A stretch of 33,030 nt of DNA from Gammaproteobacteria bacterium. Lineage in GTDB: Bacteria > Pseudomonadota > Gammaproteobacteria > Natronospirales > JAJUFS01. Position numbers and translations under genes: made by a program. Below are positions 1 through 31,577 of the stretch, piece by piece; the first letter of the stretch is position 1, and the number at the start of each line of letters is the position of its first letter. The stretch lies in assembly GCA_029263725.1 (NCBI GenBank), contig JAJUFS010000011.1, positions 1-33,030 of the forward strand, read 5' to 3'. The notes beneath the pieces are model-generated. The model was given only the letters and a program-made list of their open reading frames with translations. It was not told the origin of the DNA and did not search any database.

Positions 1-21
1 GACTATGTGCTGATCGACTGA
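1..21 (+). CDS. 3' end of an upstream gene (partial)
   Basis: The first frame reads six codons and a TGA stop, consistent with the tail of a gene that begins outside the window. Seventeen bases separate this stop from the ATG of the next gene on the same strand, so the two could be co-transcribed. Six residues say nothing about function, and the frame itself is a guess because no upstream sequence is available. Confidence 0.3.
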   Translation, partial: DYVLID

Positions 22-37
22 CGGCGCACCGGCCGCG

Positions 38-2104
38 ATGGACGCCAATCCGGTCTTCCGGGACGCCCTGCAGGGACCGCGCGCGTGGCTGGTCGCGGCC
101 ATCATACTGCTGTTCCCCGCCACCACCCTCGTGCTCGAGGGGGCGGCCTCCTTCCTGCTGCTGTTGCTGGCGCTGCTCGGCATCGTGTTCGCGCTGCGCG
201 AACGCGGCGAGCCCCTGTCGCGCGACGAGAAGCTGCTGGTGTTCAGCGTCGCCTTCTTCGTCGGCATCGCCGTGCTGTCCTACCTGCTCGGTGAACTCAA
301 CTATCTCGGCTTCAAGAAGCTCGGCCGCTACGCGCGCTTCCTGCTGCTGATCCCGATCTATCTCGTGGTGCGGCGCATGCCGCACAGCGGCCGTTACTGG
401 TGGACGGGGCTGGCCATCGGCGGCATCGCGGTGGGCCTGTTCAGCCTGCTGCTGCTCATCGATGAAGGCCGCTGGATCGAGGGCAACGACCTCTTCAATC
501 TCACCACCGAGCCGCTGCTGTTCGCCTCGCTGTCGCTGGTGGTGGCCTTCATGAGCCTCGGCGGCGTGGAATATTTCCGCGGCCGCTCGGCCTGGCTGAT
601 GCTGCTGCCGGCGGCGGGCTTCGTGCTCGGCTGCACCGCCACGTTCCTCTCGGGCGTGCGCAGCTCCTGGGTGGCGGTGCCGGGACTGGCGCTGTTCCTG
701 TTCTGGTATTTCGCCACGCGGCGCGCGCCGGCCTGGCGATGGGGCGTACTCGGCGGCCTGCTGGCGATCGCGGTGCTGGTCTACCTCGTGCCGCAGACCG
801 GCGTGGCCGAACGAGTGCACATGCTGGTAGAGGACGTCGGACGCATTCTCGCCGGCGAAAAGGTCGAGGGCGTGATCGGCTACCGCGTGCCGATGGCGAA
901 GATCGCCTGGCATGCCTTCCTGCAGAATCCGCTGTTCGGCGCCGGCGTGGGCGGCTACGCGGTCTACCTGCGCGAGTTCGTAGAGGCCGGGCTGGCACCG
1001 GAGCAGCTGCTGCGCTTCGACCATCCGCACAGCGAATACCTCGCCGTGCTCGCCGGCCGCGGGCTGGCGGGGCTTCTGGCGCTGCTGCTGGTGTTCGGCA
1101 TCCCGCTCAGGCATTTCCTGTGGGGCATCCGCCACCCGGACCGCGACATCGCGGCGCTGTCGTATGCGGGCATCGCGCTGGTGGTCGGCTTCATGCAGTT
1201 CGCGCTCACCGAGGCGATCTTCGACCGCACGCTGCCGATCACCTTCTACGTGTTCTGCCTGGCGGTGATCTACGGCCTGGTGCGCGCCTGCGAGCGCGAG
1301 TACCTGTCACGCTCGACGCAGCGCGCGCAGAGCCTGAGCGTGATCATCATCGCCAAGAACGAGGCCGACCGCATCGGCCAGACGCTGGCGGCGATCCATG
1401 GCTGGGCGGACGAGATCATCGTGCTCGATTCCGGCAGCAGCGATGAAACCGTCGAGATTGCGCGGCGCTACGCCGACAAGGTGCAGGTCACCGACTGGCC
1501 GGGCTTCGGCCGGCAGAAGCAGCGCGCCCTGGATGCGGCGAGCTGCGACTGGGTGCTGGCGCTGGACGCGGACGAAGTGGTTACCCCGGCCCTGCGCAAC
1601 GAGATCGATCATGAATTGACGGCCACACCGCGCTTCCAGGGTTATCGCATTCCGCGGCCGCTGATCATCTTCGGCCAGCATGTGGATTACGGCGGCAGCT
1701 GGCAGGCGCCGCTGCGGCTGTTCCGCCGCACGCTTGCGCGTTACACCGATGTCCCCGTGCACGAGAAGGTGGTGCTGAGCGAAGGAAAGATCACGCTGAT
1801 GCGCAGCGGCCTGCACCACCCCACCTACCGCGACTACCAGCATGCGTTGCAGAAGTTCGTCGATTACGCCTGGCTGCAGGCCGGGGCGCGCTGGAACCGC
1901 GGCCGGCGCAGCAGCATGACCGGCGCGGCACTGCGCGCCGCCTACAACTTCATCTACAACTACTTCATCCGCTTCGGTTTCCTGGATGGCGCCCACGGCT
2001 TCGTGCTGGCTGCCCTGCACGCGCAGTACACCTTCAACAAGTACGCGGCGCTGTGGGCGATGGAACAGGAACCGCACACCGCGCCGCCGCCCGGCGGGGA
2101 ATGA
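38..2104 (+). CDS. O-antigen ligase / polymerase-like membrane protein fused to a GT2 (WaaE/KdtX-like) glycosyltransferase
   Basis: This 688-residue protein joins two usually separate enzymes. Residues about 15-415 are strongly hydrophobic, with about ten membrane segments, a periplasmic-loop region with FGAGVGGY (300-307) and DHPHSEYL (328-335), and an Arg-bearing GVRSSW (206-211), as in Wzy_C/WaaL O-antigen ligases. From about residue 432 a cytosolic GT2 domain starts (SLSVIIIAKNEADRIG) with LDSGSSDE (463-470) and the DxD-like LALDADE (508-513), resembling the LPS-core beta-1,4-glucosyltransferase group. The linker is only about 15 residues and the frame is unbroken. The N-terminal part is known to join undecaprenyl-linked glycans to lipid A-core or to polymerise them; the GT2 part adds core sugars. 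A coupled role is inference. The start has no strong ribosome-binding site. Its stop abuts the stop of the convergent gene. Confidence 0.85.
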   Translation: MDANPVFRDALQGPRAWLVAAIILLFPATTLVLEGAASFLLLLLALLGIVFALRERGEPLSRDEKLLVFSVAFFVGIAVLSYLLGELNYLGFKKLGRYARFLLLIPIYLVVRRMPHSGRYWWTGLAIGGIAVGLFSLLLLIDEGRWIEGNDLFNLTTEPLLFASLSLVVAFMSLGGVEYFRGRSAWLMLLPAAGFVLGCTATFLSGVRSSWVAVPGLALFLFWYFATRRAPAWRWGVLGGLLAIAVLVYLVPQTGVAERVHMLVEDVGRILAGEKVEGVIGYRVPMAKIAWHAFLQNPLFGAGVGGYAVYLREFVEAGLAPEQLLRFDHPHSEYLAVLAGRGLAGLLALLLVFGIPLRHFLWGIRHPDRDIAALSYAGIALVVGFMQFALTEAIFDRTLPITFYVFCLAVIYGLVRACEREYLSRSTQRAQSLSVIIIAKNEADRIGQTLAAIHGWADEIIVLDSGSSDETVEIARRYADKVQVTDWPGFGRQKQRALDAASCDWVLALDADEVVTPALRNEIDHELTATPRFQGYRIPRPLIIFGQHVDYGGSWQAPLRLFRRTLARYTDVPVHEKVVLSEGKITLMRSGLHHPTYRDYQHALQKFVDYAWLQAGARWNRGRRSSMTGAALRAAYNFIYNYFIRFGFLDGAHGFVLAALHAQYTFNKYAALWAMEQEPHTAPPPGGE

Positions 2105-3166
2105 TCAGAAGGTTTCGAGCGCGTCGGCGATGCGCCGGCTGGCCTGGCCGTCGGTGGGACCGATGAGTTCGCGGGTGTAGCGGCAGCGAACTTCGCTGCG
2201 CTCGGCGGGGAAGGCCAGCGCCTGTTTCACCACCTCCACCAGCGCATTGGGCGTGGCGGCGTGCGAGGCGATGTCGGCGTACTGCTCGATGCTGCGATCC
2301 AGGCGCTTCTCCAGCCGCCATGCCAGCGGGCCGCGATGCGCCCAGCGGCGATGGAAGAAGTCGCACCACACCACCGGCCTGTCCAGTGCCGCGAACTCGA
2401 ACAGCGCCGACGAGGCTTCGCTGACCAGGATGTCGGCCGCGGCCATGAACGGCAGCAGCGAAACCTCACCCGGACCCGCAACGAAGGCGTTGTCGAAGCG
2501 CCGCCAGCTTTCCAGCCGCTTGCGCTGCGGGGCGTAGTAGGACTTGGTCCAGGAAAAGTGGTGCGGTTTCACCAGCAGGTTGCAGCCTTCGAAGCGCGCC
2601 GGCAGGTCGGCCGGCAGGCGCTCGATGGAGCTCGGGTAGTAGGTCGGCGCATACAGCACCGTCGGCAGCGACGGGTCGAGCCCCAGCGCGGCGAGATCGA
2701 GGCGGATGCCGGCGGGGTCGCGGAACAATGGATCCAGCTTGGCGAAGCCGACCGCGCGCAGCTTCGCTTCCGGGTAGCGGCGCTGCAGCTCGCGCTCGCG
2801 GTACTCGCCTTCGACGAAGCGCAGGGTCATGCGCATCAGGCCCGCGCCGTAATAGCAGCGCTTCACGCCGATGCCGTGGTAAAGCAGCGCGGTGCGCGTG
2901 CCGGCGGGCAGCTCGTCGAGGTGATCGTAGCCGTTGCCGAAGATCAGCCAGTCCGGCTGCTGCTTCAGGTACTCGCGGTGCGCGTCGCGCGCGCCCTTCA
3001 CGTGTACCTGTGGCAGCCCCTGGCTGACCACCGCCAGCGCCTCGGCGCACTCCAGTTCCTCGTGAAAGACGAACAGCGTTTCATGGCCGCGCGCCGCCAG
3101 CTCGCGCTGCACCGGCAGGAACTGCGGCAGGTAATAGAGGTGCTGGACGTCGAAGATGACCTTCAT
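2105..3166 (-). CDS. CDP-glycerol glycerophosphotransferase-like glycosyltransferase (first copy)
   Basis: The 353-residue soluble protein has the layout of the Glyphos_transf family (teichoic-acid TagB/TagF type, GT-B fold): LLYHGIG near 94-100, VLYAPTYYP near 170-178, LLVKPHH near 197-203 and ILVSEASSALFEF near 246-258. The last matches the family's nucleotide-binding TDYSS-x-FDF segment, here written SEASS. Its length is that of the catalytic domain alone, without the membrane-anchoring N-terminus of Gram-positive versions. It begins inside the stop of the preceding minus-strand gene (4-base ATGA overlap), so the pair is probably translationally coupled. In an LPS cluster it may transfer a glycerol-phosphate-like or other nucleotide-activated unit to a surface glycan. 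Donor and acceptor are unknown. Confidence 0.75.
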   Translation of the reverse strand: MKVIFDVQHLYYLPQFLPVQRELAARGHETLFVFHEELECAEALAVVSQGLPQVHVKGARDAHREYLKQQPDWLIFGNGYDHLDELPAGTRTALLYHGIGVKRCYYGAGLMRMTLRFVEGEYRERELQRRYPEAKLRAVGFAKLDPLFRDPAGIRLDLAALGLDPSLPTVLYAPTYYPSSIERLPADLPARFEGCNLLVKPHHFSWTKSYYAPQRKRLESWRRFDNAFVAGPGEVSLLPFMAAADILVSEASSALFEFAALDRPVVWCDFFHRRWAHRGPLAWRLEKRLDRSIEQYADIASHAATPNALVEVVKQALAFPAERSEVRCRYTRELIGPTDGQASRRIADALETF

Positions 3167-4206
3167 TTGACAAGTCCCAGGCGGCGGTAGCGGCGGCGCA
3201 TCTTGAGGCGGCGGAAGAAGTTGCGCGGCTTGGGTTTCAGCGTCGCCATCCGGTTCTCGTTGATGAAGGTCGCAATGGCGTCCAGCACGCGTTCGCTGGA
3301 GCGCCCGTCGCGGCAGGGGTGCATGGCCTCGGCGAAGCGGCGCGCGGCGGCGAGGTCGCCGGGCTGGCGTTCCAGGGCGCGCTCTATGTGCGCCTCAAGC
3401 TCCGCCGCGCGGGTGAAGTTGATGAGGTGCGGCCCGGGACGGCTGTTGCGGAAGGTCACTGCCGGCTTGTCGAGCAGCAGGAATTCCGCGACCACCGACG
3501 AGGTGTCGCTCACCAGCACGTCGGCGGCGCGCAGCAGCGGATTGATGGCCGACGTGCCGGCCACCTGGAGCGTGGCGCCGGCCAGCGCCTGGAAGTGCGC
3601 GATCCACTTGCGATCCATCTTGGGATGGAACTTCACCAGCCAGTTCCAGCGACCGGCCTGCGCCAGCTGCGCGATTTCTCCCGCGAGCGCGGGCGCGCTG
3701 GTGAGCGAGGGCGAGAAGGTGGGCGCGTACAGGATGAGCGGCCGTGCAGGGTCGGCGAAGCCCGCGCGCCAGTCGGGATCGGGGCCTGCCGGCGCGAACA
3801 GCGCGTCGGTCTTGGGCCAGCCGGTTTCATGCACGGCGAAATGCCCGTGGCGCGCCGCCAGCGCCAGGAACGGTTGCGTGGTCAGCGGCCCGTGGGTGCA
3901 GTAGAGATCGAACCAGCCGCGGATGCGGAAGTGACCTTTCTTTTCTATGCCGAAGCCGTGGAAGACCTGCACCTTCACGCCCGGGAAGAACGGCGGCACC
4001 CAGTTGCCGGGCACCAGCACGGCGTCGGGCGCGAAGGCCTTGACCGCATCGAAATCCCGCAGGCGCAGTTCGTCCGTCTGCAGCTGGTCGTTCGCGGTCG
4101 GTTCCAGGAACCAGGCGACTTCATCGCCACGCTGCCGCGCCGCCGCCTGCACCGGGCGAAGGATCTCGTAGGCGTAATCGTGTGTGACGAACATGAGGTG
4201 CTTCAT
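3163..4206 (-). CDS. CDP-glycerol glycerophosphotransferase-like glycosyltransferase (second copy)
   Basis: This 347-residue protein has the same architecture as its downstream neighbour: VFHGFG (81-86), LILYAPTFSPS (157-167), LVKFHPK (190-196) and ADVLVSDTSSVVAEF (228-242). It is a clear but diverged paralogue. The C-terminus is very basic (KPKPRNFFRRLKMRRRYRR), which could hold it at the inner membrane. Its ATG shares one base with the TGA of the upstream GT9 gene (TGATG), and its own stop overlaps the start of the next gene, so the three minus-strand genes form a tight operon. Two different copies suggest two successive transfers, for example a primer and an extender step, by analogy with TagB/TagF; this is inference. 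Confidence 0.75.
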   Translation of the reverse strand: MKHLMFVTHDYAYEILRPVQAAARQRGDEVAWFLEPTANDQLQTDELRLRDFDAVKAFAPDAVLVPGNWVPPFFPGVKVQVFHGFGIEKKGHFRIRGWFDLYCTHGPLTTQPFLALAARHGHFAVHETGWPKTDALFAPAGPDPDWRAGFADPARPLILYAPTFSPSLTSAPALAGEIAQLAQAGRWNWLVKFHPKMDRKWIAHFQALAGATLQVAGTSAINPLLRAADVLVSDTSSVVAEFLLLDKPAVTFRNSRPGPHLINFTRAAELEAHIERALERQPGDLAAARRFAEAMHPCRDGRSSERVLDAIATFINENRMATLKPKPRNFFRRLKMRRRYRRLGLVK

Positions 4207-5249
4207 CAGGCCCTCGATTCCATCAGCGTGTCGAGCTTGCCAGTGACATCGTCGACGGTGATGAGGTCCATGGCATCCGGGGAGCGCACTCGCGCGCCCC
4301 AGCGGACCTCGTCGACGCTACGGTCGAGGAACTTTCGTAATGCATCCGGGTAGCGATTCACCACCCATTCGCGCCCGTAATACGGACCGGTACGGTCGGG
4401 ATTCGAGGTGGCGTAGAGCCCGATGACCGGTGTGCCCACGGCGTTGGCCATGTGCACGGGGCCGGAATCGGGGGAAACCAGCACGGCCGCGCCTTCCAGC
4501 AGGGCGAGCAGCTGCTTCAGCGAGGTCTGGCCGATCAGGTTCACGCAGGCGGGCAGCTCCCGCTGGATGGCCGCGCCATAGCCGCGCTCCAGCTCGGTGG
4601 GGCCGCCGGTGAGCAGCACGCGCATGCCGTGCTTCGTGATGGCATGCCGGGCCAGCGCGACATAGCGCTCCACCGGCCAGTTGCGGAAGTTGCGGCTGCG
4701 CTGGCTGGAGCAGGGGCTGATGACGAGCGTCGGCGCATCGAGATGTCTCGCCGCGAACTCGCGGGCGTCATCGGGGATCGGAATGTCCCAGCGCACCGCG
4801 CCGCGTGGCACGCCCAGCGCCTCGGCAAAGCCGAACAGGCCGTCCATGACGTGCTGCCGCGGGTGGGCTGGAATCTCGCGGTTGGTGAACAGCCACTGCC
4901 AGTCGCGGGCGCGGGCGCGGTCGAAGCCGAGGCGCAGCGGCGCCTTCACCGCCAGCGAGGCGATGCTCGCGCGCAGTGCGACCTGCATGTGCAGCAGCGC
5001 GTCGAAACGCCGGCCCTTCAGGCGGCGGGCGAGTTCCCGGTAGCCGGCGAGCCCCGCGCGCTTGTCGAAGACGATGAACTCGATCCCGGGAATGTCGCCG
5101 ACCAGCTGGTGCTCGAGCCGGCCGATGATCCAGGTGATGTGGGTGTCAGGCCACCGATCCTGTAGAGTGCGCACCACCGGCAAGGTGTGGCAGATGTCCC
5201 CGATCGCGGAGAGGCGCAACACGCATAGGTTGCCGGGTGAGTCGATCAA
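4206..5249 (-). CDS. Glycosyltransferase family 9 (heptosyltransferase-like, WaaC/WaaF group)
   Basis: The 347-residue protein has the GT9 ADP-heptose:LPS heptosyltransferase signature: LRLSAIGDICHTLPVV at residues 11-26, ISPCSSQRSRNFRNWPVERY near 177-196, and SPDSGPVHMANAVGTPVIGLY at 259-279. These enzymes add heptose to the Kdo inner core on the cytosolic side. The neighbouring hldE makes the donor ADP-heptose. Whether this is heptosyltransferase I, II or a later enzyme cannot be decided here. The start is a TTG, supported by GGAG nine bases upstream and by the position of the N-terminal motif. It is the first gene of a three-gene minus-strand operon and diverges from kdkA, with little more than 50 bases between the starts. 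Confidence 0.85.
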   Translation of the reverse strand: MIDSPGNLCVLRLSAIGDICHTLPVVRTLQDRWPDTHITWIIGRLEHQLVGDIPGIEFIVFDKRAGLAGYRELARRLKGRRFDALLHMQVALRASIASLAVKAPLRLGFDRARARDWQWLFTNREIPAHPRQHVMDGLFGFAEALGVPRGAVRWDIPIPDDAREFAARHLDAPTLVISPCSSQRSRNFRNWPVERYVALARHAITKHGMRVLLTGGPTELERGYGAAIQRELPACVNLIGQTSLKQLLALLEGAAVLVSPDSGPVHMANAVGTPVIGLYATSNPDRTGPYYGREWVVNRYPDALRKFLDRSVDEVRWGARVRSPDAMDLITVDDVTGKLDTLMESRA

Positions 5250-5302
5250 GCGGGAGAGCTCCGGGAATGCAGGCGTCAGTGCGGGCCATCAAGGGCGGGC
5301 TA

Positions 5303-6010
5303 ATGCTATACGATGCCGCGGAGAGCGGCAAAATCCATGATCACGTTTTCGCGCCGGCCTACTGGCGCGCCCGCAATGCCCTCAGCGAGCCGCTTGGCGG
5401 GCGCGGCGCCGCCTGGCGCATCACTGCTGGCGACATCGACTGGGTGTTGCGCTTCTATCGCCGCGGCGGCCTGCCCGGCAAGGTGCTGCTCGACTGGTAC
5501 CTGTTTACCGGGATGGATCGTTCCCGGCCCTTCCTGGAATGGCATCTTCTCAAGGACATGCATGACGCGGGCTTGCCGGTGCCGCGGCCGGTGGCGGCGC
5601 GCGTCATCCGCTACGGTCTCGGCTATCGCGGCGCCATCATCACCGCTACGGTGCCGGGCGAATCCCTGGCGCGGCTGCTCATCGAGGAGCGGCTGACCGC
5701 CGCCGACTGGCAGGCGACGGGCTACTGGATCCGCAAGTTTCATGATTCCGGTGTATGGCACGCCGACCTGAATGCCCACAACGTGCTCATCCAGCAGGCG
5801 GAATTGTCATCAAAGGTTCACTTGATCGACTTCGATCGCGGCAGATTCCGCCCGCAGGATACGGGCTGGCGAGAGGGGAATTTGTCCCGTCTGCGCCGGT
5901 CGCTCGCCAAGGTCGCGCCTGACAGGGAGGCGCTGATCGAGGCGGGCTGGGCAGAACTGCGGAAGTCATACGACGAGCCATGGGAATACCAGCACCGGAA
6001 CACGAGCTGA
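5303..6010 (+). CDS. kdkA: 3-deoxy-D-manno-octulosonic acid (Kdo) kinase
   Basis: KdkA phosphorylates Kdo of the LPS inner core at position 4, using ATP, at the cytosolic face. The protein shows the family's kinase-like motifs: HADLNAHNVLI (about 153-163 from this start) and LIDFDRGR (about 174-181), plus RFYRRGGLPGK and FLEWHLL, which match known KdkA proteins. I chose ATG 5303 (235 residues), close to the usual family length and preceded by AAGGGCGGG. The ORF continues upstream to ATG 5267 and GTG 5237, and the GTG would overlap the divergent GT9 gene. Kdo kinases typically accompany a WaaA that adds a single Kdo, so the inner core is probably Kdo-phosphate rather than Kdo2. The 3' end overlaps the next gene by 31 bases. 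Confidence 0.88.
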   Translation: MLYDAAESGKIHDHVFAPAYWRARNALSEPLGGRGAAWRITAGDIDWVLRFYRRGGLPGKVLLDWYLFTGMDRSRPFLEWHLLKDMHDAGLPVPRPVAARVIRYGLGYRGAIITATVPGESLARLLIEERLTAADWQATGYWIRKFHDSGVWHADLNAHNVLIQQAELSSKVHLIDFDRGRFRPQDTGWREGNLSRLRRSLAKVAPDREALIEAGWAELRKSYDEPWEYQHRNTS

Positions 6011-7254
6011 GACTGCTGTTTCTTTCCCGCCCGGGCATTCACGTCCGCTATTTCCGTGCACTTGCCGAAATCCTGCCGCGAAGCCGTGTCGAAGCGGTGA
6101 GAGCGGTGCGGCGCGCCGAGGGCAACGAGTTTCCCGCCGATGACATCCTGGAGCGCCTGCTCCGCGTCCACGTGGCGCGACGCTTCCAGCGCGCGCCGCG
6201 CGTCTTCCGCTACCGGCTGCTGCGGGCAATCTATCTTGCACACCTGCGCCGCGCGGCGCGCCGCCTGTACGCGCACTGGCTGGCGCGCCTTGGCCGCGAA
6301 CGCGGACAGTGGGATGCGGTTGCCGTGTGGAATGGGTTGCGCTACCCGGACGCCGTGCTGGTGGCGGCGGCACGCGAGGCCGGGCTGCCGGTGGTGCATT
6401 TCGAGCTTGGCGCGCTGCCCGAGTCGCTCAGCATCGACCTGCATGGCGTGAACTTCGACAACAGCGTGCCGCGTACCGCGTCCTTCTACCTGCGTCACTG
6501 CGAGCAGCTGCCGCCGGCCACGCCATTGCCGCTGCGCCCGCGCCGTCCGCGGCGCGGCAAGCGGCTCGAAGTCGCCGCGCTGCCGGAGCGCTTCCTGTTC
6601 GCGCCCTTCCAGGTCAACTACGACACGCAGATCGTCGCGCACTCGCCATGGATAGGAAACATGCATCACTGGTACGAGGTGCTCGCCGGCATGCAGCAGC
6701 GGCTAAGCGCGGAAGGCGATCCGCGCGTCATCGTGCTGCGCGAACACCCCAGCGACATGACGCATTACCCGGACCTGCATGAACGCGCGCAACGCGACGG
6801 CATGTTGTTCGCCAACGGCAACGACATGCGGGAGCTGCTCGACCGCATGGACGTGCTGCTCACCATCAACTCGTCCACCGGCATCGAGGCGCTGCTGCGG
6901 GGAAGGAAGGTGATCGTCTGCGGACAGGCGTTCTACGACATCGACGGGCTGGTGCTGCGCGCCCGCGACGGGGACTCATTGCTGGCCGCGATCCGCGAGG
7001 CGGACCACTGGAAACCGGATGGGCTGCTGCGCGAACGCTTCCTCGCCTGGCTGGAACACGAGTATTACGTGCCGCGCTTCCAGCCGAAGGGCCTTGCCAG
7101 TGATGATGCCGCCGAGCGCCGCGAGCACCAGCGCCGCCTCGAGCTTGCCATCAGGCGCATCCACGCGCTGCTGGCGCCGCCGGCAACCGAGACGCGGCCG
7201 CATTTCCATTCGCGACGTGAAATCACGGCGCAGGAGCAGCCGGCCCGCTGGTAG
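5980..7254 (+). CDS. Capsule-type polysaccharide biosynthesis protein (KpsS/KpsC-like)
   Basis: This 424-residue soluble protein resembles the Capsule_synth family (KpsS/KpsC, beta-Kdo transferases that build the phospholipid linker of group 2 capsules). Visible landmarks are WNG (118-120), HFELGALPESLSID (140-153), LREHPSD (253-259), TINSSTGIEALL (295-306) and GQAFYDIDGL (315-324). The last three are the most characteristic. The C-terminal tail of about 40 residues looks unstructured. It starts within the last 31 bases of kdkA, so the two are probably translationally coupled, which fits a joint action on Kdo. No other capsule export genes are seen, so a role in LPS-core decoration is as likely as one in capsule. 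It is convergent with lpxL across 9 bases. Confidence 0.72.
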   Translation: MGIPAPEHELRLLFLSRPGIHVRYFRALAEILPRSRVEAVRAVRRAEGNEFPADDILERLLRVHVARRFQRAPRVFRYRLLRAIYLAHLRRAARRLYAHWLARLGRERGQWDAVAVWNGLRYPDAVLVAAAREAGLPVVHFELGALPESLSIDLHGVNFDNSVPRTASFYLRHCEQLPPATPLPLRPRRPRRGKRLEVAALPERFLFAPFQVNYDTQIVAHSPWIGNMHHWYEVLAGMQQRLSAEGDPRVIVLREHPSDMTHYPDLHERAQRDGMLFANGNDMRELLDRMDVLLTINSSTGIEALLRGRKVIVCGQAFYDIDGLVLRARDGDSLLAAIREADHWKPDGLLRERFLAWLEHEYYVPRFQPKGLASDDAAERREHQRRLELAIRRIHALLAPPATETRPHFHSRREITAQEQPARW

Positions 7255-7263
7255 GTCCTGCCG

Positions 7264-8187
7264 TCAGCGTTTCTCGCGATACGCCTTGGTCTTGAAGCGG
7301 TTGTGGCACCAGAGGTACTGCTCGGGGACGCGCCGCGCTTCCTCTTCGATGAGGGCGTTGACGCGGGCGCTGTCGGCCACCGGATCGGCGCTGGGAAAAT
7401 CCGCGAGCGGCGGATCGATGCGCAGGCGATAACCCTCGGCGCCGGGCAGGCGTTCGACCATGAAGGGCAGCACCGGGCTGCCGGCGCTGCGCGCGATCCG
7501 CGAGGTAGCGGTATTGGTGGGCGCGGGCACGCCGAAGAACGGCAGCATGGCGGAGTTCTTGCCGCGGTAGCCCTGGTCGGGTGCGTACCACACCGGATGG
7601 TTTTCCTTCAGCGAGCGGATCAGCGAGCGCACATCGTCGCGCGGGATGACCTTCTCGAAATGCCTGCGGCGGCTGTTGGAGATGATGATTTCCAGCAGCT
7701 CGGTGCGGTTCGGCCGGTACATCAGGTGGAAAGGATGGAACAGCGCCAGCAGCCGGCCGCCGATTTCCAGCGTGGTGAAGTGCGCCGACAGCAGCAGCGC
7801 GCCGTGCCCCTGGGCGAGCGCCGCCTCGAGATGCTCAAGGCCCTCGATGCGCACCAGCTTGCGCAGCTTGCGGTCCGACGCCCACCAGCAGTTGGCGATC
7901 TCGAACACCGCGATGCCCAGCGCCTTGAAATGCTCGTGCGCGAGCGCGCGGCGCTCGGCTTCGGAAAGCTCCGGGAAGCACAGGTCCACGTTGAGATGCG
8001 TGATGCGCCGGCGGCGTCCCGCGGTGGCGTAGATCAGCCAGCCGATGCCGCGGCCGAGGAACAGCTGCACGCGGTAGGGCAGGTAGACGCTCAGGCGCAT
8101 GAAGCCGATCACCAGCCACAGCGGCCAGTAGAGCGGGTTGAGCACGTGCCTGGGCTGGACCCTGTCGGGATATTTCACTGTAGCCAT
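7264..8187 (-). CDS. lpxL: Lipid A biosynthesis lauroyl-type acyltransferase
   Basis: LpxL/HtrB transfers a secondary acyl chain from acyl-ACP to the Kdo-lipid A precursor at the inner membrane. From the chosen start (307 residues) the protein has an N-terminal hydrophobic anchor (YWPLWLVIGFMRLSVYL), the HX4E catalytic motif in SAHFTTLEIGGR (His about 136, Glu about 141), MYRPN near 156-160 and WYAPDQGYRGKNS, all matching the LpxL family. The ORF is open to 8259, but ATG 8187 (MATVKYPD) is preferred. A good promoter (TTCACC, 17 bases, TAGAAT) lies at 8207-8235, so a transcript would begin near 8200 and exclude the longer form. The 5' leader is then very short, with no clear ribosome-binding site. 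It diverges from hldE. Confidence 0.9.
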   Translation of the reverse strand: MATVKYPDRVQPRHVLNPLYWPLWLVIGFMRLSVYLPYRVQLFLGRGIGWLIYATAGRRRRITHLNVDLCFPELSEAERRALAHEHFKALGIAVFEIANCWWASDRKLRKLVRIEGLEHLEAALAQGHGALLLSAHFTTLEIGGRLLALFHPFHLMYRPNRTELLEIIISNSRRRHFEKVIPRDDVRSLIRSLKENHPVWYAPDQGYRGKNSAMLPFFGVPAPTNTATSRIARSAGSPVLPFMVERLPGAEGYRLRIDPPLADFPSADPVADSARVNALIEEEARRVPEQYLWCHNRFKTKAYREKR

Positions 8188-8206
8188 CCGGGAAAAGCGA
8201 AAGCGG

Positions 8207-8235
8207 ATTCTAGCCCTCCGCTCGATGCGGGTGAA
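8207..8235 (-). promoter_or_regulatory. Probable sigma-70 promoter of lpxL
   Basis: On the minus strand, TTCACC (8230-8235) and TAGAAT (8207-8212) are separated by 17 bases. Transcription would begin about 12 bases before ATG 8187, which supports that start. Confidence 0.6.
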
Positions 8236-8281
8236 CCGCCGCGCGTTAGGGCCTTTCACGGGTCGGGGGTTTTTGATGCTG

Positions 8282-8290
8282 TGCTACCAT
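8282..8290 (+). promoter_or_regulatory. Extended -10 promoter element of hldE
   Basis: TGCTACCAT is an extended -10 (TGn plus TACCAT) 35 bases before the hldE ATG. No convincing -35 is seen at the right distance, which is usual for extended -10 promoters. Confidence 0.45.
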
Positions 8291-8324
8291 GCGCGGCACC
8301 GCCTTCGCAGCCCGATCACGACGC

Positions 8325-9746
8325 ATGAACATCCGCATTCCCGACTTTTCCCAGGTCCGCGTGCTGGTCGCGGGCGACGTCATGTTCGACCGCTACTGGT
8401 ATGGCGCGACCGGAAGAATTTCTCCCGAGGCGCCGGTGCCGGTGGTGAAGGTGGAGCAGGAGGAAGGCCGTCCGGGCGGCGCGGGCAACGTCGCCGCCAA
8501 CATCGTCAGCCTCGGCGGGCGGGCCACCGTGGTCGGTGCCGTCGGCCGCGATGAGGCCGCCGCGCGGCTGCGCAAGGCGCTGGGCGAGCGCGGCGTGGAT
8601 TGCGATTTCGTCGAGCTCGACGGCATCGAGACCACCACCAAGCTGCGCGTCATCAGCCGTCACCAGCAGCTCATCCGCCTGGATTTCGAAAGCACCGACC
8701 GCGACATCGACGCCGCGCTGTTCAACGCGCGCGCCGCGAGCGCGCTGCCCGGCCACCAGGTGCTGATTCTTTCCGACTACGCCAAGGGCACGCTGGGCGA
8801 TCCGCAGGCGCTGATCCGTGCGGCGCGCGAGGCCGGCGTGCCGGTGCTGGTCGATCCCAAGGGCCGCGACTTCCAGCGTTACCGCGGCGCCACCCTGCTG
8901 ACGCCCAATCTTTCCGAGTTCGAGGCCATCGTCGGGCCCTGCCGCGACGAGGACACGCTGGTGGAGAAGGCGCGCCGGCTGCGCGAGGAACTCGAGCTCG
9001 AGGCCCTGCTGGTCACTCGCAGCGAGCACGGCATGACGCTGGTCGCCAACGACGGCGTGCATCACCTGCCGGCGCAGGCGCTGGAAGTCTTTGACGTCAC
9101 CGGCGCCGGCGACACTGCCATCGCCGTGCTGGCGGCGGGGCTGGCCGCGGGCCTGCCGCTGCCCGATGCCGCCGCGCTCGGCAATTTCGCCGCCGGCCTC
9201 GTGGTCGCGCGGCTGGGCGCGGCGAGCGTCACGCCCACCGAGCTCAAGCTCGCCGTCAAGCATCGCACCGGGGGCGCCACCGGCATCCTCGAGGAAGACG
9301 AGCTGGTCGAGGCGGTGCGCGACGCGCGCCAGCGCGGCGAGCGCGTGGTGATGACCAATGGCTGCTTCGACATCCTGCATGCCGGCCACGTCGCCTACCT
9401 GCAGGAAGCGCGCGCGCTGGGGGACCGCCTGGTCGTCGCGGTCAACACCGATGAATCCGTGCGCCGTCTCAAGGGCCCCGAGCGGCCGATCGTGCCGCTC
9501 GCGCAGCGCATGGCGGTGCTCGAGGCACTGGACGCGGTGGACTGGGTGGTGCCGTTCGGCACCGACACGCCGCGCGAGCTCATCGCCAGGGTGAAGCCCG
9601 ACATTCTCGTGAAGGGCGGCGATTACCGGCCCGAGGAAATCGCCGGCTATGAAGAAGTGATCCAGGCGGGCGGCGAGGTTCGCGTGCTGCACTTCGAGGA
9701 AGGCATCTCGACCACCGGGATCATCAGCCGCATACGAAGTCTCTGA
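8325..9746 (+). CDS. hldE: Bifunctional heptose-7-phosphate kinase / heptose-1-phosphate adenylyltransferase
   Basis: HldE carries out two steps of ADP-heptose synthesis for the LPS inner core in the cytosol. The N-terminal ribokinase (PfkB) domain spans about residues 1-315 and includes [13 protein letters not shown], the glycine-rich [11 protein letters not shown] and the catalytic GAGDT near 260. The C-terminal nucleotidyltransferase domain has [17 protein letters not shown] (HAGH about 352-355) and [17 protein letters not shown]. At 473 residues it matches the usual length of about 475. ATG 8325 (MNIRIPDF) is the family-like start; the ORF is open 12 codons further. It is followed after one base (TGA C ATG) by waaA, so the two are almost certainly co-transcribed and coupled. 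Confidence 0.95.
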
Positions 9747-9747
9747 C

Positions 9748-11013
9748 ATGCGCAGCCTGTACAACCTGCTGCTGATCCTGCTGCTGCCGCTGTTCCTGGT
9801 GATCGCCGCGGTGCGCGCCAAGCGGCAGACCGGCAGCTGGGGCCCGGTGCGCGGCCGGCTCGGCCTGGTGAGCGTCCAGTCCGGCGACAACGTCTTCTGG
9901 GTGCATGCCTCTTCCGTCGGCGAGATGCAGGCGGCCGTGCCGCTGGTCAAGGCGCTGGCCGCAGGGTATCCCGAGGCGCGTCTCATCGTCACCAGCTTCA
10001 CCGCGAGCGGCATGCAGCGTGCCCGCGCCGCCTTCGGCGAGACCGTCGAGATCGCGCCGCTGCCCTACGACCTGCCGCTGTTCAACCGCCTGTTCCTGGA
10101 GCGTGTTCGGCCGCGCGTGCTGATCGTCATGGAAACCGAGGTCTGGCCGAACCTGTTCCGCCAGGCCGCGGCCCGCGACATCCCGGTGCTGCTGGTGTCC
10201 GCGCGCATGACCGAGAAGAGCGCAAGGCGCTACGCGCGCATCAGCCGCCTGGTGCGCGATGCGCTCGCCGCGGTGCGCTACGTCGGCGCGCAGAGCGCCC
10301 GCGACGGCGAGCGCTTCCGTAGCCTGGGCGTGCCGCGCGAGCGCGTCACCGTGAGCGGCAACCTCAAGTTCGACATTCCCGAATCCGCCGAGACCCGCGA
10401 GCAGGGCCAGGCGCTGCGCGGCCTGCTGTTCGCCGGCGCCCAGGTGCTGGTCGCCGCCAGCACCCGCGTGGGCGAGGACGAGATCGTGCTGGACGCCTTC
10501 CGGCAGGTGCGACGGCGGCATCCGGATGCGCGGCTGGTCATCGTGCCGCGGCATCCCGAGCGCGGCGCGGCCATCGTGGCCCTGGCGCGCGAGGCGGGCT
10601 TCAGCGTTGCGCAGCGCTCGGTTGACGAGCCCGCCGCGCTCGCCGACGTGCATGTCATCGACACCATCGGCGAACTGAACGCCTTCTATGCCGCGGCGGA
10701 CGCCTGCTTCGTCGGCGGCAGCCTGGTGCCGGTCGGCGGCCACAACCTGCTGGAACCGGCCTCGCTTGGCATTCCCATCGTCACCGGCACGCATCACTTC
10801 GCCACCCCGGACATCTTCCGGGAGATGCGCGAGGCCGAGGCGATCATGGTGGCACGCGACGCGGCTTCGCTGGCGCATGCCTGGAACGAGCTGCTCGATG
10901 ATCCGGTGCTGCGTGACGAGCTCGGCCAGACGGCGCGCGCCATCGTCGAGCGCAACCGCGGCGCGCTCGCCGCGGTGATGCGCGACCTGCAGCCCTTCCT
11001 TCCCGCGGCCTGA
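9748..11013 (+). CDS. waaA: Kdo transferase (lipid IVA 3-deoxy-D-manno-octulosonic acid transferase)
   Basis: WaaA (KdtA, GT30) transfers Kdo from CMP-Kdo to lipid IVA at the cytosolic face of the inner membrane. The 421-residue length is normal. An N-terminal membrane anchor (LYNLLLILLLPLFLVIAAV) is followed by WVHASSVGEMQAAVPLV (the family's acceptor-binding Glu), VMETEVWPNLFRQ, VSGNLKFD, VPRHPER and VGGSLVPVGGHNLLEPA. All are hallmark segments of the family. Since kdkA lies in the same locus, this WaaA may be monofunctional, as in Haemophilus; sequence alone does not prove it. It follows hldE by one base. No terminator is seen directly after it; the nearest is about 190 bases downstream. 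Confidence 0.95.
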   Translation: MRSLYNLLLILLLPLFLVIAAVRAKRQTGSWGPVRGRLGLVSVQSGDNVFWVHASSVGEMQAAVPLVKALAAGYPEARLIVTSFTASGMQRARAAFGETVEIAPLPYDLPLFNRLFLERVRPRVLIVMETEVWPNLFRQAAARDIPVLLVSARMTEKSARRYARISRLVRDALAAVRYVGAQSARDGERFRSLGVPRERVTVSGNLKFDIPESAETREQGQALRGLLFAGAQVLVAASTRVGEDEIVLDAFRQVRRRHPDARLVIVPRHPERGAAIVALAREAGFSVAQRSVDEPAALADVHVIDTIGELNAFYAAADACFVGGSLVPVGGHNLLEPASLGIPIVTGTHHFATPDIFREMREAEAIMVARDAASLAHAWNELLDDPVLRDELGQTARAIVERNRGALAAVMRDLQPFLPAA

Positions 11014-29686: not shown

Positions 29687-29956
29687 TCAGTTCAGCCGGT
29701 CGCGCCCGGGAAGGTCGCTGTCGGAGAAGCGCGTGTCCTGCTCCCAGCGGGAAAGTTCCTCCTCGGCCTCCTTGCGCGACTTGCCATAGGTTTCCTGGAT
29801 GGCGCCGAGCAGCTTGTCGCGGTTGCCCTCGATGCGGTCCAGGTTGTCGTCGGTGAGATCGCCCCAGCGCTCCTTGATCCTGCCCTTGAACTGTTTCCAG
29901 TTGCCCTTGGCGATGTCCCAGTTGGCGCTGCGGGACTGATTGGATTGCTCTCGCAT
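29687..29956 (-). CDS. CsbD-family stress protein (copy 1)
   Basis: This 89-residue hydrophilic protein carries the CsbD domain: NWDIAKGNWKQFKGRIKERWGDLTDDNLDRIEGNRDKLLGAIQETYGKSRKEAEEEL, in order. CsbD proteins are small helical proteins induced by general stress (sigma-B in Bacillus, RpoS-type in proteobacteria), with unclear biochemical role. It is convergent with the flavoprotein gene (16 bases apart) and diverges from the Crp-type regulator. GGAG lies at the right distance from the ATG. It is one of three CsbD genes within 2 kb. Confidence 0.9.
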   Translation of the reverse strand: MREQSNQSRSANWDIAKGNWKQFKGRIKERWGDLTDDNLDRIEGNRDKLLGAIQETYGKSRKEAEEELSRWEQDTRFSDSDLPGRDRLN

Positions 29957-30257
29957 GTGGTTCTCCGCGGTGTGAGTTCCTGTTCATGGAACCCTTGTTC
30001 GGGCAGTCCGCGCAAATCATGAAACTGCTGAAGGCAAGGTGCTCAACGGCAAAGCGCGCCAGGGCGATTTGTGTCGGCCTGTGGCGACAGCGATGAGCGT
30101 GTAGCCCCCTCGATTGCACAAAATAATCAGAATTAGCACCGATGAAATATATACGCTGAAACGCTCAAGCTTTGTCTCCGGCGGCGGTTGCGTTTCTGTC
30201 ATCACACCTCGCGCAAGGTCGTGTCCTTGCGTGGAACCGGAAAAGGTGGAGGCTTCA
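29957..30257. promoter_or_regulatory. 301-base divergent intergenic region between csbD copy 1 and the Crp-type gene
   Basis: The gap holds an AT-rich island (about 30108-30160, with TATATA at 30148-30153) inside otherwise GC-rich DNA, the likely site of promoters. I see no convincing -35 and no classic Fnr or Crp box. The ORF track's longer start at 30114 reads through this region but has no protein-like sequence. Confidence 0.4.
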
Positions 30258-31076
30258 ATGCTTCGCAGAAACCTTCTGCAGGAGAACGCCGTGCTCGCGG
30301 CCATGAGCGCCAGGGACAGCGAACTGATACGAGCCATGCTCGAACCCGTGACGTTGCATGCCGGCGACACGCTCTATGAACCGCGCCGGCCGCTGCGCGA
30401 CATTTACTTCCCCGTCAGCGCGTCCATTGCGCTGCTTCTTGCCGCCGAGGAGGACTCGGCGGGCATTGCCATGGTCGGCAACGACGGCATGCTCGGCACC
30501 GGCCTGATGCTGGGCGTGGAGATCGCCGCCAGCCGTGCCGTGGTGGTCAGCGCCGGCGATGCCTATCGCATTGCGGGCAACCGCCTCAAGGCGGTCGCGG
30601 AAGAATCCCCGGAGCTGCGCATGCTGTTCCTGCGCTGCGCGCACCTGCTCACCCTGCAGGCAGCGCTCACCGCGGTATGCAACCGGCGGCACCTGGTGAA
30701 ACAGCAGCTGTGCCGCTGGCTGTCATGGATGATCGATCACACCCCTTCCTGGGATCTTTACGTCACCCACAGCGCGATTGCGGTCAGTCTCGGCGTGCGT
30801 CGCGAGGCGATCACGGAAGCGCTCGGGAAACTGCAGGACGCAGGCGCGGTCGCCTGTTCACGCGGGCGCATCTCGGTGCTCGAGCCGCGGCTGCTGCACC
30901 AGGGCGCGTGCAGCTGCTATTCGCTGCTCAAGGCCGAGCATGGACGCCTGCTGGGGATGGATGCCGGCGAGGATCAGTGCGAGCCGCCGGAATCGCGGCC
31001 GCGCTCCAGCGTCTCCAGGTTGGCCTTGACGAACGCGTCGACCTCGGCTTCGGCCTGGGCGCGATCCAGCCCGTAA
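30258..31076 (+). CDS. Crp/Fnr-family transcriptional regulator
   Basis: From ATG 30258 (272 residues, GGAGG five bases upstream) there is an N-terminal cyclic-nucleotide-binding-type barrel (VTLHAGDTLYEPRRPLRDIYFPVSASIALL, then GNDGMLGTGLMLGVEIAASRAVVVSAGDAYRI) and a C-terminal helix-turn-helix (THSAIAVSLGVRREAITEALGKLQDAGAV). It lacks the cAMP-binding RS-A signature of Crp and the N-terminal Cys cluster of Fnr, so its ligand is unknown. The last 35 or so residues (after CYSLLKAEHGRLLGM) are low-complexity and read antisense through the 3' end of a CsbD gene for 103 bases. It lies between CsbD genes and may regulate them; that is inference. Confidence 0.85.
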   Translation: MLRRNLLQENAVLAAMSARDSELIRAMLEPVTLHAGDTLYEPRRPLRDIYFPVSASIALLLAAEEDSAGIAMVGNDGMLGTGLMLGVEIAASRAVVVSAGDAYRIAGNRLKAVAEESPELRMLFLRCAHLLTLQAALTAVCNRRHLVKQQLCRWLSWMIDHTPSWDLYVTHSAIAVSLGVRREAITEALGKLQDAGAVACSRGRISVLEPRLLHQGACSCYSLLKAEHGRLLGMDAGEDQCEPPESRPRSSVSRLALTNASTSASAWARSSP

Positions 31077-31243
31077 ACCTTCTGCAGCTTGCCGGCCAGC
31101 TTCTCGTGGCGGCCGGCGATTTCCTCGATCTCGTCGCGCGTCAGCCGGCCCCAGCGCTGGCGCGCGGCGCCTTTCAGGATGGTCCAGTTGCCGGCAAGGC
31201 GAGACCGCAGCCCGACATGTGGTGGTGGTTCGCGCATCGTCAT
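30974..31243 (-). CDS. CsbD-family protein (copy 2)
   Basis: The 89-residue product includes GLRSRLAGNWTILKGAARQRWGRLTRDEIEEIAGRHEKLAGKLQKVYGLDRAQAEAEVDAFVKANLETL, a CsbD domain more diverged than copy 3. ATG 31243 lies one base after the stop of copy 3 (TGA C ATG), so they form a coupled operon; ATG 31237 is an alternative. The ORF track's longer start is antisense and non-homologous. Its 3' 103 bases overlap, antisense, the end of the Crp-type gene. Confidence 0.85.
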   Translation of the reverse strand: MTMREPPPHVGLRSRLAGNWTILKGAARQRWGRLTRDEIEEIAGRHEKLAGKLQKVYGLDRAQAEAEVDAFVKANLETLERGRDSGGSH

Positions 31244-31244
31244 G

Positions 31245-31577
31245 TCAATGCCGGGTGGGATGATCGCCGGTTTCGTTGCCGCTGCCGTACTCGCGCATGC
31301 GCTCGGTGGGTCCGCGGCCGCTGGCGCCGGCCACGCTCCTGCCGCCTTCCTCGAACTCGCGGACCTGCGCTTCGGCGGCTTCGGCATCAAGGCCGTACAT
31401 GCGCTGCAATTCTTCCAGCAGCTTTTCGCGCCGGCCGGCGATGCCTTGCACCTGCTCGTCGCTCAGCTGGTTCCAGCGCGCCTGTATCTTGCCCTTGAAG
31501 GTCTCCCAGTTGTTGCCGGCCTCGTCCCAGTTCATGTTCTGGCGGCGCTGCTCGTTGGAATCGATGCGGTTCTTCAT
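31245..31577 (-). CDS. CsbD-family protein (copy 3)
   Basis: The 110-residue protein has NMNWDEAGNNWETFKGKIQARWNQLSDEQVQGIAGRREKLLEELQRMYGLDAEAAEAQVREFEEG, a full CsbD domain (residues about 14-78), plus a 30-residue Gly/Arg-rich tail. The N-terminus (MKNRIDSNEQRRQ) is basic. It is the first gene of a two-gene minus-strand operon with copy 2. Three CsbD copies in one locus suggests expansion. The 91 bases upstream, up to the next gene, are moderately AT-rich and hold no motif I can name. Confidence 0.9.
   Translation of the reverse strand: MKNRIDSNEQRRQNMNWDEAGNNWETFKGKIQARWNQLSDEQVQGIAGRREKLLEELQRMYGLDAEAAEAQVREFEEGGRSVAGASGRGPTERMREYGSGNETGDHPTRH

Follow-up and report, generated by a model that had tools for sequence, protein, structure and literature searches.

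A single open reading frame of 688 residues, encoding an O-antigen ligase joined in frame to a WaaE-like GT2 glycosyltransferase, spans positions 38-2104 (+) of the DNA analysed here, and its product is probably a bifunctional, two-sided inner-membrane enzyme of lipopolysaccharide (LPS) maturation. We infer the two activities, which sugar and acceptor are used, and whether the halves are functionally coupled. The window, 33,030 nucleotides in length, is the whole of one contig (C128) of a draft gammaproteobacterial genome (2.15 Mb, 83% complete). The frame starts with ATG and an in-frame stop lies upstream of it at 11-13. A sequence-only reading of the window had described the frame as unbroken, with a multi-span WaaL-like half, a linker of about 15 residues and a complete GT2 domain. 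The ORF list, the Pfam search and the alignments described below agree with that description, and the matches to Wzy_C and to Glycos_transf_2 (residues 434-518, E 1.5e-17) both pass their curated cut-offs. The features are collected in Table 1. An AlphaFold2 model made from a two-row alignment had a mean pLDDT of 40 and was set aside.

Table 1. Features of the fused gene and its neighbours (window coordinates)
Feature	Position	Strand	Basis
Last codons of upstream zinc-finger gene (zf-CHCC-like by reading), body on contig C145 after glnE	1..21	+	
Fused CDS, O-antigen ligase and GT2 glycosyltransferase, 688 aa	38..2104	+	ORF, Pfam
WaaL-type ligase half, residues 18-416, 12 predicted membrane spans	89..1285	+	alignment to 7tpg, hydropathy
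Pfam Wzy_C match, residues 194-350	617..1087	+	E 1e-17, over curated cut-off
R208	659..661	+	Arg in 38/39 ligase halves; aligned to Arg of 7tpg
Large predicted periplasmic loop, residues 257-342 (86 residues), bearing R283 and H329-P-H331	806..1063	+	hydropathy
R283	884..886	+	invariant, 39/39 ligase halves; aligned to Arg of 7tpg
H329-P330-H331, histidine motif of O-antigen ligases	1022..1030	+	ligase-half and 7tpg alignment
Interdomain linker, about residues 417-431 (15 residues)	1286..1330	+	near-constant length across fused proteins
GT2 (WaaE/LgtF-like) half, residues 432-677	1331..2068	+	Pfam, Klebsiella alignment
D510-A-D512-E513	1565..1576	+	D510, D512, E513 invariant in 82/82 GT2 relatives
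CDP-glycerol glycerophosphotransferase-like protein A	2105..3166	-	PF04464
CDP-glycerol glycerophosphotransferase-like protein B	3163..4206	-	PF04464
Heptosyltransferase, GT9	4206..5249	-	best NCBIfam match heptosyltransferase I, below its cut-off
Kdo kinase KdkA	5237..6010	+	domain/family profiles
Capsule-synthesis-like protein	5980..7254	+	PF05159
LpxL/LpxP family acyltransferase	7264..8259	-	domain/family profiles
HldE	8289..9746	+	family profile
WaaA Kdo transferase	9748..11013	+	family profile

In a search of solved structures, residues 20-415 of the fused protein aligned with residues 13-401 of Cupriavidus metallidurans WaaL (7tpg, a chain of 413 residues; E 1.2e-10). As this is nearly the whole chain, the ligase half is complete. 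The Arg, Arg and His positions are shared as well, although 7tpg is a stand-alone chain without a glycosyltransferase domain. This length-wise alignment and the Wzy_C match place the half among the WaaL-type O-antigen ligases (CAZy GT121), as do about 12 spans and a large periplasmic loop bearing conserved His and Arg, both predicted from hydropathy and the positive-inside rule. Such Arg and His residues have been discussed as functional in WaaL-type enzymes (PMC9938171, PMC12800693). Neither Wzy_C_2 nor PglL_A, which would indicate a PglL-type protein O-oligosaccharyltransferase, was found in the fused protein by Pfam at E 0.001.

The 12 spans were obtained from hydropathy averaged over the family. 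With the N-terminus placed inside, the even (cytoplasmic) loops contain 19.8 Lys and Arg residues vs 8.1 in the odd short (periplasmic) loops. The GT2 domain comes after span 12 and is therefore predicted to lie on the cytosolic side, with the ligase site predicted to be periplasmic. The earlier suggestion that one membrane protein carries two activities on opposite faces is thus upheld as a prediction.

Residues 430-677 aligned, at 42% identity, with residues 2-250 of a Klebsiella protein of 258 residues that is encoded between waaA and coaD, the position of waaE. The alignment covers the full length of the Klebsiella protein, so that the GT2 half is complete, and it resembles WaaE/LgtF. In Klebsiella and Aeromonas, WaaE acts as the beta-1,4-glucosyltransferase of heptose I (PMC5372535). 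In the solved-structure search residues 433-592 matched GmaR, a GT2-fold protein, with E 1.1e-13. D464, D469 and H575 are invariant in 82/82 GT2 relatives, as are the three acidic residues listed in Table 1. The known WaaE and LgtF proteins differ in being stand-alone, at about 258 residues, and in their phylogenetic position: the GT2 halves of the fused proteins belong to a 31-row group (98/96) that is sister to, and outside, the Klebsiella/Aeromonas WaaE group. The GT2 half therefore looks like WaaE, and its precise sugar and acceptor are presumed from that resemblance.

The neighbourhood of the fused gene is an LPS core locus (Table 1). Its GT9 heptosyltransferase gene is the sole GT9 gene in the recovered genome (83% complete), which hints at a short core. 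The first 141 bases of the window are identical to the last 141 of contig C145 (L036), and this overlap places glnE and a small zinc-finger gene upstream of the fusion; it touches only the first 34 codons of the fused frame, over 1 kb away from where the two domains join. The window genome and genomes G001, G213 and G400 share the order glnE, (ilvE), zinc-finger gene, fusion. On the far side of the fusion, one or both CDP-glycerol glycerophosphotransferase-like genes are present in most of the cases examined, and in several families one or both adjoin the GT2 gene, fused or unfused. Further along the window, at 29692-31577 (-), there are small ORFs resembling, by eye, three CsbD-type stress proteins, with a regulator-like ORF among them at 30114-31076 (+). 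No RNA families or tRNAs were found within the window.

The following scheme is proposed. The cytosolic GT2 domain would take a hexose from a nucleotide sugar and add it to the nascent lipid A-core; by analogy with WaaE/LgtF acting on heptose I, the hexose would most likely be glucose. The lipid A-core would then be flipped by MsbA, and the 12-span ligase half, using a periplasmic site made up of R208, R283, H329 and H331, would put an undecaprenyl-diphosphate-linked glycan onto the core. A PF01943 flippase was found neither in the window genome (83% complete) nor in G001, a genome of the same family but a different genus, and so the donor glycan in these two is uncertain; in the other three families, the genomes with the fusion do have PF01943 flippases. 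On contig C106 of the window genome (L042 4944-8148) a MurJ-family flippase lies beside a Wzy-like protein and an asparagine synthase. It is possible that this polysaccharide cluster would be the donor pathway, perhaps via the MurJ-like flippase. ABC2-type exporters on C127, C73 and C80 of the same genome were considered and rejected, being by eye other kinds of ABC exporter and not O-antigen exporters.

The fused architecture is real, recurrent and uncommon. Full-length single-ORF fusions, aligning end to end, were found in 15 cases from four families of Gammaproteobacteria, with 40-53% identity to the window protein in a 12-row alignment. G001 carries the same joined ORF, with 56% identity over the matched part. 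In an even draw from the class the full-length fusion is present in 5/369 genomes (the window genome, G001, G213, G228 and G073), and a sixth, G209, has it split across two contigs. Sampling within orders gave full fusions in 7/24 genomes of the order of G213 and in 5/12 of the order of G228, where one more is truncated by a contig end past the junction. The matches listed from a 399-genome draw from the phylum include no other fusions. A scan of a genome contig collection gave one GT2-only locus, a scan of viral contigs gave one fragment, and a plasmid collection held no record covering 80% of the query; its listed matches were to the GT2 half only and some are chromosomes filed as plasmids. 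An apparent 752-aa open frame in G032 was rejected, as it consists of two ORFs with in-frame stops between them. Elsewhere the ligase and GT2 genes are separate, as the sequence-only reading had assumed, and often adjacent. Its term "rare gene merger" is apt in that the fusion is uncommon, but the window gene is not a lone case.

Some irregular forms were also seen. In G397 (L078, around 2385) a frameshift breaks the fused gene at about residue 380, within one of the late membrane spans of the ligase, and contigs of G401 (L122) and G209 (L049) end at the same place; these breaks may reflect chance, assembly trouble or a hot spot. In G161 a 631-residue ORF (L053 394-2286) joins a close relative of the GT2 half to a GT4/GT1-type glycosyltransferase (Glycos_transf_2 and Glycos_transf_1).

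The fused gene probably originated when a waaL-like and a waaE-like gene became joined in frame at the glnE-ilvE-LPS core locus. Pairs of separate genes for the same kinds of protein, in the same order and touching or nearly so, are found in G040, G187, G353, G181 and others; they differ from the fusion in giving two proteins with a stop between them and lie mostly on another GT2 branch. In G040 the TGA stop of the ligase is followed immediately, in the same frame, by the ATG of the GT2 gene. The TGA-ATG spacing recurs in G187, a member of that genus, and in G353 a single TAA separates the two. As the tree places these three pairs on another GT2 branch, they illustrate the ease of such a merger and are not direct ancestors. 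A single clade of all fused GT2 halves was not rejected in a tree test (p 0.31). The corresponding strict clade of ligase halves was rejected (p 1.5e-5), since the unfused ligases of G390 and G361 branch among the fused ones. In G390 the ligase gene occupies the canonical site behind the zinc-finger gene, and the GT2 gene is on another contig. The trees are compatible with a single fusion and subsequent separations, and also with repeated fusion.

The two halves may be joined without being functionally coupled. They may simply act as ordinary separate enzymes would, with the joining serving only to fix equal amounts or to anchor the GT2 domain at the membrane. This has a substantial chance of being correct, somewhat short of even, and is compatible with a bifunctional protein. 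It is in keeping with the common occurrence of unfused adjacent pairs, some only one in-frame stop apart, with the existence of close relatives of the fused halves carried apart in G390 and G361, and with the linker, whose sequence is poorly conserved among the 15 full-length proteins aligned. The length of the linker, however, is constant to within about one residue, and the fusion has been retained in many species of two genera and across four families, which speaks against this reading.

Both halves are under purifying selection in two of the families, where dN/dS in nine pairs was 0.05-0.18 for the ligase and 0.004-0.14 for GT2, several of the synonymous distances being saturated. Between the window gene and that of G001 the values were high, at 0.60 and 0.33 respectively, on composition-biased synonymous sites.

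The ligase half has diverged more rapidly than the GT2 half: identity between the window protein and that of G001, its nearest relative, is 46% vs 70%. H331 is kept in 37/39 ligase halves, the exceptions being two fused proteins, those of G001 (Leu) and G408 (Arg), and R208 is replaced by His in the fused protein of G395. Among unfused ligases in the alignment set 0/23 have lost H331 or R208. Ligase activity may thus be weak or altered in some fused members. These substitutions, the faster divergence and the missing PF01943 flippase would fit a protein that is mainly a core glycosyltransferase, with a ligase half that serves as a membrane anchor and has reduced or lost its activity at least in the family of the window genome. 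This is nevertheless unlikely, since the window protein itself retains R208, R283, H329 and H331, two other families show purifying selection on the ligase half, and rapid divergence is usual for ligases.

The sequence-only reading had left open whether the N-terminal half performs ligation or polymerisation. Wzy_C is common to polymerases and ligases and Pfam alone cannot separate them, but a Wzy-type polymerase is distinctly unlikely here: the best solved relative is a WaaL aligned end to end, the gene sits in an LPS core locus with waaA and hldE, and the cluster on C106 has a separate Wzy-like protein. The location of the gene and the length-wise alignment to WaaL therefore favour ligation, and polymerisation is disfavoured. 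A sequencing or assembly artefact, for which the draft status of the genome might speak and which had been raised for the junction near 1310-1335 (inside or beside the linker), has practically no chance of being correct and was rejected, as the same joined ORF is present in 14 other, independent genomes and the junction is distant from the contig end.

The closest known parallel to the bifunctional, two-sided enzyme favoured here is WadA of Brucella. Experiments support both a core glycosyltransferase and an O-antigen ligase activity for WadA, which was presented as the first example of a bifunctional O-antigen ligase and also of a membrane-spanning enzyme whose active sites lie on both faces (PMC9938171). 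A CAZy study found its GT25 and GT121 form in five genera, Brucella included (PMC10920833). Both proteins, of about 700 residues, combine a 12-span O-antigen ligase with a cytosolic core-sugar glycosyltransferase and have two active sites on opposite membrane faces, the sites and roles in the fused protein being predicted from sequence. In WadA, which belongs to the Rhizobiales, GT25 comes first (residues 1-266) and the ligase second (267-703), whereas the fused protein, from Gammaproteobacteria, has the ligase first and a WaaE-like GT2 second; no GT25 domain was found in it by Pfam. The joining of both activities on one protein is therefore already known, and the Wzy_C and GT2 build is different. 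No published description of this build was found in the literature searched, which has few subscription journals. The earlier caveat that such a fusion might prove common and already described in related genomes thus applies only insofar as it recurs in relatives.

The presence of an opposite-order fusion in Gammaproteobacteria suggests that the core-sugar and ligation steps have been joined more than once. It is also a Rosetta-stone clue that WaaL-like ligases and WaaE-like glycosyltransferases cooperate when encoded apart, and comparison of related fused and split forms would allow a test of whether coupling matters. Tentatively, and as less likely than not, the fusion may be a separate invention of the WadA strategy, in which a transmembrane enzyme would add the acceptor sugar at the cytosolic face and afterwards ligate O-antigen to that very sugar on the periplasmic face. 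If this is true, one gene would set both the ligase acceptor and the core tip in a short core.
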